Positions 5,172 to 54,118 of a stretch of 64,000 bases of DNA are shown piece by piece. The DNA lies in assembly GCA_014239735.1 (NCBI GenBank), contig JAAZYI010000024.1, positions 122,670 to 186,669 on the forward strand. Direction: 5' to 3'. This stretch comes from Dehalococcoidia bacterium (GTDB lineage Bacteria > Chloroflexota > Dehalococcoidia > Lucifugimonadales > Lucifugimonadaceae). The notes below the pieces were generated by a model. That model was given only the letters and a program-made list of their open reading frames with translations. It was not told where the DNA came from and did not search any database. The first letter of the stretch is position 1, and each line of letters opens with the position of its first letter. Made by a program: the position numbers and the translations under genes.

Positions 5172-5939
5172 TTAGTCTGTCTTGTTCATTGCTGCATTAA
5201 GATCATCTGAAAGATCCCTTTTAATAGTCGGTTTCATTATAATTGTTTCAACAGTTGTCCTAATATCTAGGTTTGCTGTAGCAAAAATCATTTCGGCTAA
5301 ATCTTCAGGTTGCATCATTGTTGATCTTGCATCTTTGTTAGGTATCAATGCCCTATTTTCTAGTATTGGAGTATCTACTTCAGCAGGCATTATTGCTGTT
5401 GCTCTTATTCCCATATTTGAAAATTCGGCATTTATATCTCCCATCAGATTAGTTACAGCTGCTTTTGCTGCACTATAAGCAGCGCCTCCTAATAATCCTG
5501 GGGTTAATGCTGCCATTGATGAGACAGTAATAATAGTTCCATTTTTTTTATCTAACATATTTTTTAAGAATTCTTGGCATATTCTGTATACAGATTTTAA
5601 ATTAACATTAAGCACGTCATCCCATTGATCTTTTGGTATATGGGCAATACTTCTAACAGAACTGCTTGATCCAGCATTATTTATCAAAATTGTTACATTC
5701 CCAAAATTATCTTTAATTTCATTTTTCAATCTAACAATTTCAGAATCTTTTGAGATGTCGCATTTCATTAAATTTATATTTGTTCCATAACTACCAGCTA
5801 ATGATATTGTTTCTTTAAGAGCTTCTTCTCTTCTTCCAATAATTACAGTCTTGATATCGTTCTGAGCAAATTTAATAGCAGTTGCTCTTCCTATACCACT
5901 TCCGCCACCTGTAATTAGACATAAATCAGTTGAATTCAT
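5172..5939 (-). CDS. Short-chain dehydrogenase/reductase
   Basis: 255 residues with the classical SDR pattern: nucleotide-binding TGGGSGIG at residues 10-17, NNAG near 88-91, catalytic Ser in VSSMAA, and YSAAKAA with catalytic Tyr/Lys near 156-160. It is a cytoplasmic NAD(P)-dependent oxidoreductase; the substrate cannot be read from sequence. Its ATG overlaps the stop of the upstream FAD protein by four bases (ATGA), tying it to the envelope-assembly run that begins with rnc. Confidence 0.93.
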   Translation of the reverse strand: MNSTDLCLITGGGSGIGRATAIKFAQNDIKTVIIGRREEALKETISLAGSYGTNINLMKCDISKDSEIVRLKNEIKDNFGNVTILINNAGSSSSVRSIAHIPKDQWDDVLNVNLKSVYRICQEFLKNMLDKKNGTIITVSSMAALTPGLLGGAAYSAAKAAVTNLMGDINAEFSNMGIRATAIMPAEVDTPILENRALIPNKDARSTMMQPEDLAEMIFATANLDIRTTVETIIMKPTIKRDLSDDLNAAMNKTD

Positions 5940-7252
5940 AATTTCCTCACTTTTTCTTTTAATAAAGATACTATTTCTCCAGCAATTTTTATACTGTAAT
6001 TTGTTCCTCTGTCTTCTGGATAAATTTGTGTTGTATTGCCAATCAACAAATTTTCTATTGGTGATTCTATTTCTGGAATTAAGGATGAATAGTTTTTTGG
6101 TATAACTGGTTGGGCTGCACTTACAGCGTTATAATGATAACTTAATAACCATTCTTTATTAAATTCAGGATTAATTTTTTTTAAATTCTTCATATAAATA
6201 TCCAATAATTCTTTAGTATCTTTTTTAAAAATTTCATCAGTATGAGATAAATAATTTGTTATATATAAAATATGATTACCTCCATATCTATCCTTGCTAA
6301 CTAAATTTGTATGTTCTATTAATCCTAAAAAAGGTATTTCATCATCAATAATGTTCATCCAGTAATAAGGAGAGAATTGTTTTCTAAGTTTTAGTATGAA
6401 TACACTTGCACCAAGATATTTAGCAGCAGAAAGTTTATCTGTATATTTTTGGTTAAAATTTATTAATTTTTTGATTTCATATGAAGGCGCTGTGCAGATT
6501 ACAATATCTGTTTTGACTTTTTTCTTTATTCCATCGCAGATGTATTCTATGTTATCTATTCTTCCTTTTTCCTGACCAATAGAAGTAACTTTATGATTAA
6601 GTTTTACTTTGCCACTATTTTCTTCAATATTATCAATTAGAGAATTTATTAATTCTTCAAATGAATATTTAAGGTATCCAAGGATCTCATCCCCTCTTTT
6701 ATTTCTTGAGGCAAACCTTGTTTTCATCTTTGACCAAAACCATGGCATCGCAATCTCTTTATGGTATATACCAAATTTTGCTTTTAATAGTGGCCCCCAA
6801 ACCCTATTGTAAATTTCTTTTCCAGCATATTTCAATATCCACTTATTAGCAGATATTGCTTCATAAGGCTTCCAATTTTTCTTTTTCTGAAGATAGAGAC
6901 TTAGCAGGCCCAATCTTATCCTGTTAATTAAACTTATAGGTTTGTATTTTAATAGATCTATTGGAGTTGAGAATTTGTACAGAGAGCCATTTGCATACAT
7001 TCCAACTGATGATTTATGCCATTCTAAAGATTGGTTTAGTCCTAATTCATCTATTAATTTTATTATTTCATAATCATTTTTAAATATGTGGTGGTAACCT
7101 CTTTCAATATTATATTCATCTATTTTTATGCTTGAAGCCTGACCCCCGAAGAAATAGGAAGATTCATATACTGTTACATCAAAACCATTTTTAGAAAGAT
7201 AATATGCAACCGTAAGGCCTGTAATTCCACCCCCTATTATAGAAACTTTCAT
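5936..7252 (-). CDS. FAD-dependent amine-oxidase/protoporphyrinogen-oxidase-like protein
   Basis: 438 residues. The N-terminus is a Rossmann FAD motif (GGGITGLTVAYYLSKNG) followed by YESSYFFGGQASS. A C-terminal FAD segment reads NLLIGNTTQIYPEDRGTNYS. It resembles the NAD(P)/FAD proteins annotated as protoporphyrinogen oxidase or UDP-galactopyranose mutase-like that occur in polysaccharide clusters. The substrate is unknown. It overlaps its neighbours on both sides by four bases, and its place next to a flippase-like protein and two glycosyltransferase-like proteins suggests an envelope-glycan role rather than heme synthesis. Confidence 0.85.
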   Translation of the reverse strand: MKVSIIGGGITGLTVAYYLSKNGFDVTVYESSYFFGGQASSIKIDEYNIERGYHHIFKNDYEIIKLIDELGLNQSLEWHKSSVGMYANGSLYKFSTPIDLLKYKPISLINRIRLGLLSLYLQKKKNWKPYEAISANKWILKYAGKEIYNRVWGPLLKAKFGIYHKEIAMPWFWSKMKTRFASRNKRGDEILGYLKYSFEELINSLIDNIEENSGKVKLNHKVTSIGQEKGRIDNIEYICDGIKKKVKTDIVICTAPSYEIKKLINFNQKYTDKLSAAKYLGASVFILKLRKQFSPYYWMNIIDDEIPFLGLIEHTNLVSKDRYGGNHILYITNYLSHTDEIFKKDTKELLDIYMKNLKKINPEFNKEWLLSYHYNAVSAAQPVIPKNYSSLIPEIESPIENLLIGNTTQIYPEDRGTNYSIKIAGEIVSLLKEKVRKL

Positions 7253-41742: not shown

Positions 41743-42246
41743 ATGAAAAAAAATTTTATACCAACAATCTTGTTACTATTGTCATGTTCTTCAGGGGAGG
41801 AATTGCCTGAACCAATAGAAAAAATTACAGATTCAGGAATTATATTTTCTATACAAGAAATAAAAGAAATGGGCTTCAAGAAAAATCACGAATATAAAGT
41901 TGATGATTTGCCAGGTGCAGTTTCTGCATATTTTGGATTTATAAAAAATGATTTAGGAGATCCTGAAGATTATGAAATCAGGTTTTATAATAATCACTCT
42001 GACGCCATCGAGTTAGGTATAAAATATACTGATAATGTTACAGGCGAAAATGGATGTATATCAAAAGATTGTGCTTTATGGGCAGAAGGATTAAAACACA
42101 GAATAAGAATGTCTGATTTAGGAACCTTGCACCCTAAATATATGAGCTACCTTGTTTACAACAACTTTATTTTAATGTGCCCTGGATACGATGAAGGTGA
42201 AGCATTGGGCAAGTGCACTTCGATTATTAATAAGTTAACAAAATAA
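41743..42246 (+). CDS. Lipoprotein of a local paralogous family (member 3, type A)
   Basis: 167 residues with the signal TILLLLSCSSG. Type A blocks: MGFKKNHEYKVDDLPGAVSA, YFGFIKN, YEIRFYNNHSDAIELGIKY, ALWAEGLKHR and NNFILMCPGYDEG with a final Cys in GKCTSIINKL. The central segment NVTGENGCISKDCALW is nearly the same as in the protein at 52827. Probably outward-facing and membrane-anchored. Function unknown. Confidence 0.82.
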   Translation: MKKNFIPTILLLLSCSSGEELPEPIEKITDSGIIFSIQEIKEMGFKKNHEYKVDDLPGAVSAYFGFIKNDLGDPEDYEIRFYNNHSDAIELGIKYTDNVTGENGCISKDCALWAEGLKHRIRMSDLGTLHPKYMSYLVYNNFILMCPGYDEGEALGKCTSIINKLTK

Positions 42247-46366: not shown

Positions 46367-48907
46367 ATGAAAAATTATAAAACATTATTCTTATCAATAA
46401 TTTTATTAGTCTCTTCTGTTGGCATCATCAGTGCCGATGAAAATAAACATGTTCCTCCTCCTCAATCTTTATTTATAGCACCTAGCATAGATCAGATATG
46501 GAATCCATATGCGAGATCATGGAACAGCCCCAAAAAAGCATTCCAAGTTAATACGGTACATGAAATAGAATCAGAAATGGATTTGAAATCTAGTGGTCAA
46601 AAACCTATTCAAAATATATTTTCAGGTGATCATGGATTTATGACTCTGGAAGAAGGTGCATTCGAACTTGGAGGTATGCCTATGGAATGGTCAATAAGGG
46701 GAACAGAAGACCAAACTGCATATTTTTATGCGGATGATTATGGGTTGAGAGTTCGCGGACATTTCAGACCAGGCTATAAAAATGACATAGAACATCCTTG
46801 TCAAACAGGGCCAAAAGATAGTCACACTTCTTACCTTAGCCCCTTTCATCCTGTAAATTTAAGCGGCCAACACATTACTGGCCCAGGTACTGACTTAAAT
46901 TATGAAACAGGGATTTCACTTGCGTATGACAATGGCAAAATAGAATTAGGATTAACTGGTGATCAGAGAACTGTCATGCTATTTGGGACTCAAAAATCCG
47001 ATTGCTACACAGGGCCTATGTTCGTTACAGAAGACGATGGCATAATTGTTGCATTAGATTTTAAAAATGTTTTTACTGATAAATATAAACCTGGAATAAA
47101 TTTCATTCAATTTGAATACTGGGTATATTATGACCCTGCACATTTTCAGAATTTAGCACAAGATATTGATCATCAAATTGCTAACTCACCAATATATTGC
47201 GATCCTAGGTATGCACATACACATGGCTCTGGTCACTGGTCTGGATCTGCTGGGCAAATGGCTAGCAAGCAAATTACTGCGGGTTACGCCAATGAATGCT
47301 TGGGGATATCTTTTGAATTTTTTCCTCCTGAAAATGCAAATTCAACAAATATATTTAATGTAAGGCCTTCAGGGCCTGGCGATGAAAATGTATTTATGTC
47401 AATAGGGCTAGGGTCAGATGACTGGATAGAACTAGAATTTGAACCTTTAAAATGCGGAAATGAGATGCGTGATAGCACCAGGATTATAGGAAATAATCGA
47501 AGATATTTAGAGGATAATGAGAGTGAAAGTTATTTAATAGATTTTAAATATAATCCCATTACAACTTATCCTTACAGGTTAGCTTCTGCCAATTCTGGTG
47601 CGACTGGAGGGCCAAACGAATATGAAATGCTTTGGCGTGTCGGAAACATGATAAGTAATTCAGGAAATACTACTGATAATGGCAAACCTATAAATTATTG
47701 TTTCCTAAGAGATTACATACACAATGAAAAAGGCAGCGACCCTTGGCAAAGATTAATTGACCCTGATATGGATGGTGAATTTTCTTCGCTTTACGATAAC
47801 GAATTTGTACCATATGGGACGGATATTTCTCCTATGAGCATCACTTGGGAAACTTCACAGTTAGCTGTTATGGGGAGAAATGGGAGGAAAACGGCAAATA
47901 CTTCAATGGGATGTGATGGGCCTGATGCAGGATGTACATTTTCAAGTCTTCAAGTAAATTTATCGAACGAATTTGGAAATAAAATTAGGGGTGAAATAAA
48001 TAATACATTAAGGCATATCATATATGTTGATGGAACAGAAGCATCTTTTCCTATAGAAAACGCAGCACGAAAAGCTTGGTTTTACACAAACACCCATAAA
48101 GTAAGAATTAAGTTCAGGATGGATGCGCAACCAGGTGTAAATTTATCTTTAAAAGAGAGAGAGAACAAATGGGACGCAATTTTAAATACCATGATGGTTA
48201 TTCCTGTGCAGCCAGAAAGTGAATTCATGAATGAAAAATTAAGTTTTAAGAGCTCCTATAGAAATGGAGAATATCTAGGAATTCCTACTAATCAACAAAA
48301 TGGATTTTTTTATAATAATAAAGATTATGAATGGGTAACTACCCTTAAAAATAAGATAAATGAAGAAAATGCGCCTGTCGTAAAAGTGCTTGAAAATATA
48401 ATAGAAGCTCCAATTATTGATAAGCCATTGGATATAGCTTCAAAAGCAACAAGCTTATTTTCTGGAAATAAGGAAGAGAAAATTGACACTTCTTTATTTG
48501 ATGCTTCTGAACAAGCAGTTAGAGACAGAGAAAGGCAACTACAAGAATTAGAAGAACAACGCAGAAAATTAGACCAAGAAAGTGCTAATAGACAAGATGA
48601 CCTAGAATTTCAAAGAGAAATGCAAAGATTAGAATTAGAATCAATGAGGGCTGAACTTGAACTTGAAAGAGAAAGAATGGAGCTAGAAATGGAAAGACAA
48701 AATTTAGAAGATCAAGAAAATATGAGAGTAAATAATAAGGAATATTTTTCAGAAGATGACAGAGGTTTCTTTTCTAAGCCAAAAGCAGGTACTGAAAAAA
48801 CAGGGGGAGGTTTTCAAGATATCACTTCAGACCCAACAAAGCTGGCAATGCTAGGATTAGCAGTAACCTTGGGAACAACATTGCTACAAATGTTCAGAGG
48901 CAATTAG
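46367..48907 (+). CDS. Large secreted protein with coiled coil and C-terminal membrane anchor
   Basis: 846 residues; no family recognised. A signal peptide (about 1-23, cleavage likely after ISA) is followed by a ~650-residue extracellular part. That part is rich in aromatic residues and contains several cysteines and HTHGSGHWSGSAGQM. Residues about 715-785 form a highly charged coiled coil (runs of RERQLQELEEQRRKL and LELERERMELEMERQNLE). After a polar linker, a hydrophobic segment (about 822-842) ends with RGN. So the protein probably spans or anchors in the membrane at its C-terminus. It is followed by a small coiled-coil/membrane protein and could be a surface structure or envelope assembly protein. 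Confidence 0.8.
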   Translation: MKNYKTLFLSIILLVSSVGIISADENKHVPPPQSLFIAPSIDQIWNPYARSWNSPKKAFQVNTVHEIESEMDLKSSGQKPIQNIFSGDHGFMTLEEGAFELGGMPMEWSIRGTEDQTAYFYADDYGLRVRGHFRPGYKNDIEHPCQTGPKDSHTSYLSPFHPVNLSGQHITGPGTDLNYETGISLAYDNGKIELGLTGDQRTVMLFGTQKSDCYTGPMFVTEDDGIIVALDFKNVFTDKYKPGINFIQFEYWVYYDPAHFQNLAQDIDHQIANSPIYCDPRYAHTHGSGHWSGSAGQMASKQITAGYANECLGISFEFFPPENANSTNIFNVRPSGPGDENVFMSIGLGSDDWIELEFEPLKCGNEMRDSTRIIGNNRRYLEDNESESYLIDFKYNPITTYPYRLASANSGATGGPNEYEMLWRVGNMISNSGNTTDNGKPINYCFLRDYIHNEKGSDPWQRLIDPDMDGEFSSLYDNEFVPYGTDISPMSITWETSQLAVMGRNGRKTANTSMGCDGPDAGCTFSSLQVNLSNEFGNKIRGEINNTLRHIIYVDGTEASFPIENAARKAWFYTNTHKVRIKFRMDAQPGVNLSLKERENKWDAILNTMMVIPVQPESEFMNEKLSFKSSYRNGEYLGIPTNQQNGFFYNNKDYEWVTTLKNKINEENAPVVKVLENIIEAPIIDKPLDIASKATSLFSGNKEEKIDTSLFDASEQAVRDRERQLQELEEQRRKLDQESANRQDDLEFQREMQRLELESMRAELELERERMELEMERQNLEDQENMRVNNKEYFSEDDRGFFSKPKAGTEKTGGGFQDITSDPTKLAMLGLAVTLGTTLLQMFRGN

Positions 48908-52132: not shown

Positions 52133-52204
52133 AAATACCTCCTTATCTTTATATTTATATCACAAAAATATTTCCAAGCTGTTATCATATTTTTGGGAGA
52201 TACA

Positions 52205-52819
52205 ATGAAGATTTTATTTTATTTATCAATTTTTTCAATTATTATTGGATGCTCGCCTGAGCCATCTTACGAAGGATCGAACAAAGTCTATTCTATGGAT
52301 GATGTTGCCTCAGCTGGCCTCAAAGTTAAAAAGGATTTTGCTACAGAATTCCCAGATGCAACTCACGCAAAATGGGGTTTCTATAAAGGAAGAGATGTGG
52401 CTGTAATAAGATATGATTCAGTAGAGCTTGCTAATGCATCAGGCCAAATAGCTGGCAGCGAGCAAACTCAAAAAATTGAAGTTGTAGAAAAAAATATAGC
52501 TCATGGCCCAAAAGTAGAAAGAACTGAATGCAGAGGGCACAAAGCAAATAAACCTAACTCATCGAGCGTATATTTTAAATCAGACAGAAGTCAATTAGGT
52601 TTTGAGGATACTATACTTTTAAACAAGCTCATCTTTATAGAAGAATCAAATAAATCACAACAAATGAAACCTAGCTGGATGGCTTGCGTAAGGCGAGAAC
52701 CCATGTACACAGAGTTTCTTGTTCATGGGAACCTAGTAATAATGATAGAGCCCTTAGCAACAGAAGATAAAAATGACACTGTTAAATTTTTAGAAAAAAC
52801 TGCTAGTAGCCTGCCTTAG
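52205..52819 (+). CDS. Lipoprotein of a local paralogous family (member 4, type B)
   Basis: 204 residues from ATG 52205, preceded by GGGAGA; an in-frame TTG at 52193 is less likely. The signal is LSIFSIIIGCSPE. Type B blocks: TEFPDATHAKWGFYKGRDV, AVIRYDSVELANASGQIAGS, HGPKVERTECRG, ACVRREPMYTEFLVHGNLVI and EPLATED. It is clearly paralogous to the protein at 30317 but has an insertion near 120-155. Its stop is seven bases from the convergent type A lipoprotein gene. Function unknown. Confidence 0.82.
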   Translation: MKILFYLSIFSIIIGCSPEPSYEGSNKVYSMDDVASAGLKVKKDFATEFPDATHAKWGFYKGRDVAVIRYDSVELANASGQIAGSEQTQKIEVVEKNIAHGPKVERTECRGHKANKPNSSSVYFKSDRSQLGFEDTILLNKLIFIEESNKSQQMKPSWMACVRREPMYTEFLVHGNLVIMIEPLATEDKNDTVKFLEKTASSLP

Positions 52820-52826
52820 ACTTAGA

Positions 52827-53399
52827 TTATTTAGTAATTGCTGGCATTGCACTTGGCACAACTTCGTACAAAGTTTTAGAACATCTTAACTGGGAATCTT
52901 CCACATTATAACCAGGGCACATCATTATCATATTTCCATAAATGACATATGTAAGATACTTTGGTTTTGGTTGGCCATTTCCTGCGTGTGTATTTCCCAG
53001 CCTCTCTGCTAAAAACTGACGATGTTTTATATCCGGAGTCCATAAAGCACAATCTTTTGTAATGCATCCCTCTTCTCCGGTTGCATTTTCAACATATTCA
53101 GTTCCAATTTGAACAGCATCAGAGTGATTAGCATAAAACCTAATTTCATAATCAATTTTTTGATCATCAGGATCTAATTTATTTTTTATAAATCCATAAT
53201 ATGCCGAAGTAGCTCCTGGAAGATCATCAACCTTATATTCTTTACTCTTTTTAAAACTAACGGTTTTAAAATCATCTATAGAAAAAATTTGATCTACATT
53301 CGTAACTTGATCAACGATAGGAATAGCATTAGACTCTTCGCTTGAGCCACAACCTACCAATAAAAATATACTTATCAAACTTAAAATTATCTTTTTCAT
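52827..53399 (-). CDS. Lipoprotein of a local paralogous family (member 5, type A)
   Basis: 190 residues with signal SIFLLVGCGSS. Blocks shared with 41743 and 53555: VSFKKSKEYKVDDLPGATSA, YYGFIKNKL, YEIRFYANHSDAVQIGTEY, NATGEEGCITKDCALW and IYGNMIMMCPGY with a final Cys. The distance to the divergent gene at 53555 is 155 bases. TAGTAT ends six bases before the ATG. Unknown function. Confidence 0.82.
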   Translation of the reverse strand: MKKIILSLISIFLLVGCGSSEESNAIPIVDQVTNVDQIFSIDDFKTVSFKKSKEYKVDDLPGATSAYYGFIKNKLDPDDQKIDYEIRFYANHSDAVQIGTEYVENATGEEGCITKDCALWTPDIKHRQFLAERLGNTHAGNGQPKPKYLTYVIYGNMIMMCPGYNVEDSQLRCSKTLYEVVPSAMPAITK

Positions 53400-53554: not shown

Positions 53555-54118
53555 ATGAAAGTATTTAAAAAAATTATTCTTTATTCAATTTTATTAATTT
53601 CTATTGTTGCTTGTTCATCTGAGCCAGAAGAAATATTAATCGATAAGATTACTCCTTCAGATATTATTTTTTCCTACGAATCTCTTAGCGCTGTTGGCTT
53701 TAAAAAATCAAGAGAATATAAAGTTGAGGGACTAACAAACGCTGTTAGTGCATATTATGGATTCGTTAAAGAAAATCCTGAGGTTGATTATGAAATTCGT
53801 TTTTATAAGTCTCATAGTGATGCTATTGAATTCGGAACTAGTTTTGCTGAAGAAAGAACTGGTGAAGATGCTGTACTAAAAAAAGATGCTGCTACATGGA
53901 AGGAAGGGGTTAAAGATGCAAGAAGTTGTGCAGGTAATCCTCACGGTACAGTAAGTAAAGGTGGTACTGCGAATATAGCTCACGATATCCAAAATTGCAT
54001 GCATGTTAAATATGCTGATTACATAATATACGGAAATATGGTTATGCTTTGCGCTGGATGGGAATCTGAAGGTTCTTTTAGAAATTGCCAAATCATAATT
54101 AATAAATTGAATGAATAA
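53555..54118 (+). CDS. Lipoprotein of a local paralogous family (member 6, type A)
   Basis: 187 residues. Lipobox in ILLISIVACSSE. Blocks: VGFKKSREYKVEGL, AVSAYYGFVKE, YEIRFYKSHSDAIEFGTSF, ERTGEDAVLKKDAATWKEGV and IYGNMVMLCAGW plus NCQIIINKL. It resembles member 1 (26017) most in the ARSCAG/ARTCGG stretch. Probably anchored on the outer face of the membrane. Function unknown. Confidence 0.82.
   Translation: MKVFKKIILYSILLISIVACSSEPEEILIDKITPSDIIFSYESLSAVGFKKSREYKVEGLTNAVSAYYGFVKENPEVDYEIRFYKSHSDAIEFGTSFAEERTGEDAVLKKDAATWKEGVKDARSCAGNPHGTVSKGGTANIAHDIQNCMHVKYADYIIYGNMVMLCAGWESEGSFRNCQIIINKLNE

Follow-up and report, generated by a model that had tools for sequence, protein, structure and literature searches.

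Among described systems, the closest to the arrangement reported here are the C-terminal sorting pairs LPXTG/sortase, PEP-CTERM/exosortase, GlyGly-CTERM/rhombosortase and MYXO-CTERM/myxosortase, in which a motif, a membrane helix and a basic end are borne by unrelated exported proteins. The GlyGly-CTERM/rhombosortase pair was recognised by homology limited to the C-terminus and by near-perfect co-distribution with one membrane protein, the genes being consecutive in most genomes with a single target and far apart otherwise (PMC3237569). Membrane proteins with bPH_2 domains include YdbS and YdbT, which are paired with each other (PMC8657885), and archaeal SlaB comprises a beta-rich head, a long helix and a C-terminal membrane helix (PMC10903991). 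SAR202 bacteria reportedly have S-layers but no peptidoglycan (PMC11994032), so that no covalent wall linkage would be available, which raises the question of how such cells hold their surface proteins.

The window, the whole stretch of 64,000 nucleotides analysed here, derives from a Dehalococcoidia bacterium and contains a gene for a secreted protein of 846 residues. We consider it probable, at roughly 0.6, that this protein is displayed on the cell surface and that a clade-specific anchor module keeps it in the membrane, oriented Nout-Cin; the module would be recognised in trans by a membrane protein with a PH domain.

Architecture of the secreted protein

The open reading frame starts at ATG 46367 and ends in the stop codon 48905-48907, encoding 846 residues in a confirmed frame, with stops throughout the opposite strand of 46367-48907; a divergent PEP carboxylase gene lies on one side and a small open reading frame with a C-terminal hydrophobic stretch on the other. 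Hydropathy places the strongest hydrophobic stretch at residues 5-23 and the second at residues 825-843. The coordinates, frame and length given in an earlier, sequence-only reading of this DNA are exact, and the secreted character that it proposed fits a Sec-type signal peptide with its hydrophobic stretch at residues 5-23. The gene comprises the following features:

46367..48907, + strand: whole gene, 846 aa plus stop; relatives present in the same genus
46367..46435, + strand: Sec-type signal peptide, residues 1-23, likely cut between ISA and DE; hydrophobic maximum at 5-23
46613..47164, + strand: SAR202 accessory domain, residues ~83-266; profile relatives, mainly beta by AlphaFold
47165..48490, + strand: residues 267-708, rest of the ectodomain plus linker; relatives identified within the genus only, AlphaFold uninformative
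48491..48745, + strand: charged alpha-helical stalk, residues 709-793; helix by AlphaFold, no heptad signal
48734..48904, + strand: conserved C-terminal module, residues 790-846; from alignments, E = 1.3e-23 in the window gene
48839..48895, + strand: transmembrane helix of the module, residues 825-843; from hydropathy

Around the locus, three small lipoprotein-like paralogues are found, not in tandem (window 41743-42246, 52827-53399 and 53555-54118), with the pattern ..GFKK..EYKVDDLPGA.SAY.GF......DYEIRFY..HSDAIE.G. In addition, a lipoprotein-like family with the pattern ..FATEFP.A..AKWGF.KGR.VA.I.YD..E.AN..GQIAG..Q.. occurs near the window gene (52193-52819) and directly beside its relative in genome G008 (L005 797-1342).

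The ectodomain of about 650 residues matched no known family: Pfam and NCBIfam gave no match above cut-off for the whole 846-residue protein, the PDB sequence search gave none for residues 24-700, and PADLOC, searched for a known family of the ectodomain, returned nothing above cut-off. A match of residues 24-700 to a known enzyme or S-layer family, which would have spoken against the earlier reading, was searched for and not encountered. The TolB NCBIfam model, representing a propeller, does not match the window protein, and ATAD3_N and TMEM247 were rejected as families, both matches lying below cut-off and being confined to the charged helix.

Structure prediction of the head, suggested in the earlier reading, gave a divided result: the full-length AlphaFold model (five sequences) has a mean pLDDT of 33 and an unusable head, whereas residues 74-277 reach moderate confidence (pLDDT 62.7, pTM 0.63) with a mainly beta core. 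The accessory domain follows the pattern ..GYFY..GY....GT.xSxCY.GLL.F.QG..YG.iDpi....L.i.WW..D.GVTDF and has relatives in 17 of the 247 genomes searched in the order; most of these lie in other exported proteins, where a Thr-Pro linker frequently precedes the domain. Further module proteins that carry it are (i) a 1118-aa LRR/NHL protein of G318 and (ii) a 1322-aa protein of G006 (L106 489-4457), which comprises a propeller-like part, a long charged helix, the accessory domain, a second long helix and the module, an apparent fusion of two surface-protein plans. Foldseek found no match to the 74-277 model at E <= 0.001. Two structure matches were considered and proved too weak to assign, namely the HmuY-like PinO (6r2h), with the highest Z at 6.2, and a Methanosarcina S-layer domain (3u2g; Z 5.9, rmsd 4.3, 100 residues).

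Charged single helices are a recognised helix class, and the spacer between head and membrane is probably a stalk of this kind rather than a coiled coil, because heptad signal is missing and i/i+4 salt bridges are in excess in most of the related stalks. Residues 712-784 contain 52% D/E/K/R and 27% hydrophobic residues, and the helices 709-742 and 746-793 are the best-predicted part of the poor full-length AlphaFold model. The charged coiled coil of about 70 residues claimed earlier therefore stands as a charged helix, whereas a coiled coil is not supported: in the window stalk, analysed in all seven registers, 34% of shuffles equal or beat the heptad contrast (p = 0.34), seven long paralogous or homologous stalks do not rise above shuffles (p = 0.15-0.95), and neither does an eighth stalk of 53 residues. 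On the other hand, i/i+4 opposite-charge pairs exceed shuffles in six of these seven long stalks (p <= 0.03); for the window protein alone, which is a weak test, p = 0.10. Among carriers the stalk ranges from about 50 to 450 residues, and it is absent in several relatives. The helical stalks of ~450-500 residues at loci L008 and L105, in other carriers, are rich in E/Q/R/D and contain few Pro or Gly.

The overall plan had been called unfamiliar, but it is not without precedent: in archaeal SlaB a beta-rich head, a long helix and a C-terminal membrane helix follow in a similar order. The window protein might accordingly form the stalk in a surface layer built from two components, as SlaB does, a reading that we regard as highly improbable. 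A helix and a membrane segment are present, and mainly beta structure is predicted for one part of the head, residues 74-277; SAR202 cells are reported with S-layers and without peptidoglycan (PMC11994032), and residues 83-266 weakly resemble the Methanosarcina S-layer domain (3u2g, Z 5.9), although a Z under 8 may mean a common arrangement only. However, the heptad periodicity that a coiled-coil trimer would show does not rise above shuffles in the stalk; PF07752, the Methanosarcina-type S-layer family, does not match the window protein and is absent from 113 genomes, with a positive Methanosarcina control; and the head is found in four of ten genomes of the genus, all drafts, whereas a lattice part should be near universal. 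The window protein looks more like an individual surface protein than a layer support, since few genomes of the genus have the gene, a PEP carboxylase gene adjoins it, and its anchor is common to propeller and LRR proteins. Of the spacer role proposed earlier, secretion, the C-terminal anchor and the helical spacer fit the evidence, but there is no sign that a surface layer or sheath is supported.

A shared C-terminal module

The sequence-only reading had correctly placed a C-terminal anchor, here the hydrophobic helix 825-843, but had missed the conserved homology module, common to other proteins, to which it belongs. The module occupies the last ~55 residues with the pattern RGFF...G...DP..LA..G..VT.G.T.LQM.RG, followed by the stop, and when 13 tails are aligned, 14 columns within the final ~50 residues do not vary at all, among them R-G, D-P, L-A, G, T, G, Q and the R-G that precedes the stop; judged from this alignment, it is conserved far beyond a generic membrane helix. 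Only Arg-Gly-Asn follows the transmembrane helix of the window protein, and the basic end past the helix consists of one or two residues only (R or K plus Gly). The predicted topology is Nout-Cin, because in most of the family the net charge is negative before the helix and positive after it.

The genome that contains the window (1.29 Mb in 50 contigs, 89% complete) encodes three more proteins whose similarity is confined to residues ~710-846; two are TolB/PD40 propellers by HMM and the third is propeller-like by sequence. An apparent orthologue in G008, joined by inference into one gene from pieces at two contig ends, shares 58% identity with the window protein across residues 5-231, compared with 92% in the last 73. 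The module is present in eight of ten genomes of the genus, and a profile built from the 13 tails finds members in other genera and families; after refinement it matches 66 genes. These belong to 33 of the 250 genomes searched in the order (SAR202-type Chloroflexota), covering 11 genera and the families f1, f4, f25, f26, f29 and f31. Beyond the order, 400 genomes sampled from the phylum contained no module. A pattern scan of 84,980 species returned 19 loci, all titled Chloroflexi, Dehalococcoidia or SAR202, in keeping with the earlier pointer to Chloroflexota. A viral origin of the module was rejected, as viral contigs contained no relative.

The heads to which the module is attached are unrelated, and include TolB-like PD40 propellers, RCC1 repeats, an NHL-type propeller, LRRs and others. 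As far as the sequences tell, the tail is the constant part whereas stalk and head vary, since heads differ among carriers and the stalk is long, short or missing.

A bPH_2 membrane protein beside the module

Directly downstream of distant module genes lies a gene for a membrane protein of 219-260 aa, scoring 27.9 and 34.5 bits against a curated cut-off of 22 for bPH_2 (PF03703). Its 27 sequences display four hydrophobic peaks and then the PH domain; no Cys, Ser, His, Asp or Lys is conserved among them at 95%, and their profile matches no solved structure. At E <= 1e-20 the profile matches 34 of 250 genomes: both genes occur in 31, the module only in 2 (drafts 55% and 78% complete), the PH gene only in 3 and neither in 214 (Fisher p = 8e-34), and by genus all 11 module genera have the PH gene (Fisher p = 4e-12), these p-values being uncorrected for ancestry, with vertical inheritance of one operon explaining part of the co-distribution. 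The genomes are drafts, and absences are weak.

At each of the 30 PH loci examined, a module gene lies directly upstream on the same strand; the gap is -1 to +106 nt, many of the pairs overlap or come close to it, and this adjacency is retained over at least six families. In single-module genomes with a PH gene, the two are adjacent in every case examined. Where modules outnumber the PH gene, at four to one in the window's genome (G000) and seven to one in G006, one module lies beside it and the others elsewhere; the window gene is such an extra copy, not adjacent to the PH gene. The pair of G000, on contig C20, comprises a module-bearing PD40 propeller (L103 3981-5615) and the bPH_2 protein (5666-6370), then an MFS-type transporter that is also seen in G002 (L016). 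Some genomes of genus g6 carry two complete module/PH pairs. At L048 and L051 (G024 and G014, of the same genus), a third gene after the pair encodes a membrane protein of ~212-226 aa with a charged helical stretch, MDIGFVTSLVSIPLVGALGTAAWR. In G041, which has the PH gene and no match to the module profile, the frame that immediately precedes PH encodes a PD40-type propeller and closes with DIDLVTLTLVGVLLALVTLGLQLFRRR; with this divergent, module-like tail, the association predicted a member that the profile had missed. In G438 (L142), the PH match is fragmentary, the PH frame looks broken and no module was found upstream.

The tail could be a plain membrane anchor that needs no partner, with the PH protein serving a separate function and sharing an ancestral operon. 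Anchoring takes no more than a hydrophobic helix of 19 residues with positive charge behind it, and neither the window gene nor the other extra copies are near PH; we nevertheless hold this to be unlikely, considering that specific residues are conserved across unrelated heads, that both genes occur in 11 of 11 module genera, and that adjacency over at least six families, often touching or overlapping, exceeds what a passive pair would need. Alternatively, the tail could be a sorting signal that is cut off, as in PEP-CTERM, GlyGly-CTERM or MYXO-CTERM proteins, the PH protein being or accompanying the processing enzyme. This would account for the three-part layout, the likeness at the C-terminus only, the near-perfect co-distribution, the single-carrier adjacency and the separation elsewhere, all of them the GlyGly-CTERM/rhombosortase pattern. 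Such processing appears quite unlikely, as the PH protein has no evident catalytic residue (27 sequences, 95% threshold) and its profile resembles no solved structure, the basic end is only one or two residues long, and sortase and exosortase (PF04203, PF09721) are absent from the ten draft genomes of the genus. Finally, the two proteins could be a sensor pair whose head binds an external ligand and signals via the module helix to the PH protein. Propellers, LRRs and RCC1 repeats commonly serve as binding scaffolds, and the PH domain is predicted inside; at the loci read, however, the pair has no recurrent neighbour that is a kinase, a regulator or otherwise involved in signalling, and signalling does not need a long charged stalk, which makes this reading improbable.

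Proposed mechanism and comparison with known systems

In the preferred reading, a surface protein with an anchor recognised in trans, Sec would export the window protein, the 650-residue head including the accessory domain 83-266 would sit outside the cell, and the charged single-helix stalk would raise it off the membrane. The last ~55 residues would hold the protein in the cytoplasmic membrane with the C-terminus inside, as a clade-specific anchor used by many different surface proteins. Most likely, the four-helix membrane protein with its cytoplasmic bPH_2 domain would recognise the module within the membrane, and would serve all carriers in trans as a retention partner, oligomer base or sorting factor. 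Genome comparison documents the shared module, the varied heads, the gene pairing, the co-distribution and the many-to-one copy numbers. Topology, physical contact and action in trans on the window protein are predictions, and so is its dependence on the PH protein, since the gene does not lie beside PH. A more specific version, plausible though short of probable, would make the bPH_2 protein a dedicated non-protease receptor of a C-terminal surface-anchoring tag with interchangeable heads and varied stalks, the window protein being a trans client.

SAR202 bacteria abound in the ocean, and the module/PH pattern points to a previously undescribed mode of surface fixing in them; searches of an open-access library, which do not amount to a full literature check, turned up no report that connects SAR202 to a tag of this kind. 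If the reading is true, the conserved tag and its partner would allow SAR202 surface proteins to be listed from sequence alone, and a PH-domain protein would be added to the few membrane partners by which C-terminal tags are read.

Several carriers of the window's genome resemble TolB/PD40 propeller proteins in their heads, but the carriers are membrane-anchored and fall far under the TolB NCBIfam equivalog cut-off of 343, two scoring 83.7 and 32.8 bits, and the window protein has no propeller match. With Sulfolobus SlaB it would share the head, helix and membrane-helix plan in cells without peptidoglycan, but differs in having no heptad signature, no sequence link found and an anchor module common to unrelated heads. 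The partner resembles YdbS/YdbT and DdE/DdF of enterocin DD14 in combining transmembrane helices with a bPH_2 domain; in contrast to YdbS/YdbT, it is a protein of 219-260 aa that has four helices and a single PH domain, and is paired with a secreted anchor protein. The module/PH pair differs from the CTERM systems in its motif and in its four-helix bPH_2 partner without conserved catalytic residues, and should not be filed as one of them because a protease partner is among their defining features. By analogy, it behaves genomically like a CTERM sorting system, closest to GlyGly-CTERM/rhombosortase in its near-perfect many-to-one co-distribution with one membrane protein and in the adjacency of the two genes where there is one carrier.
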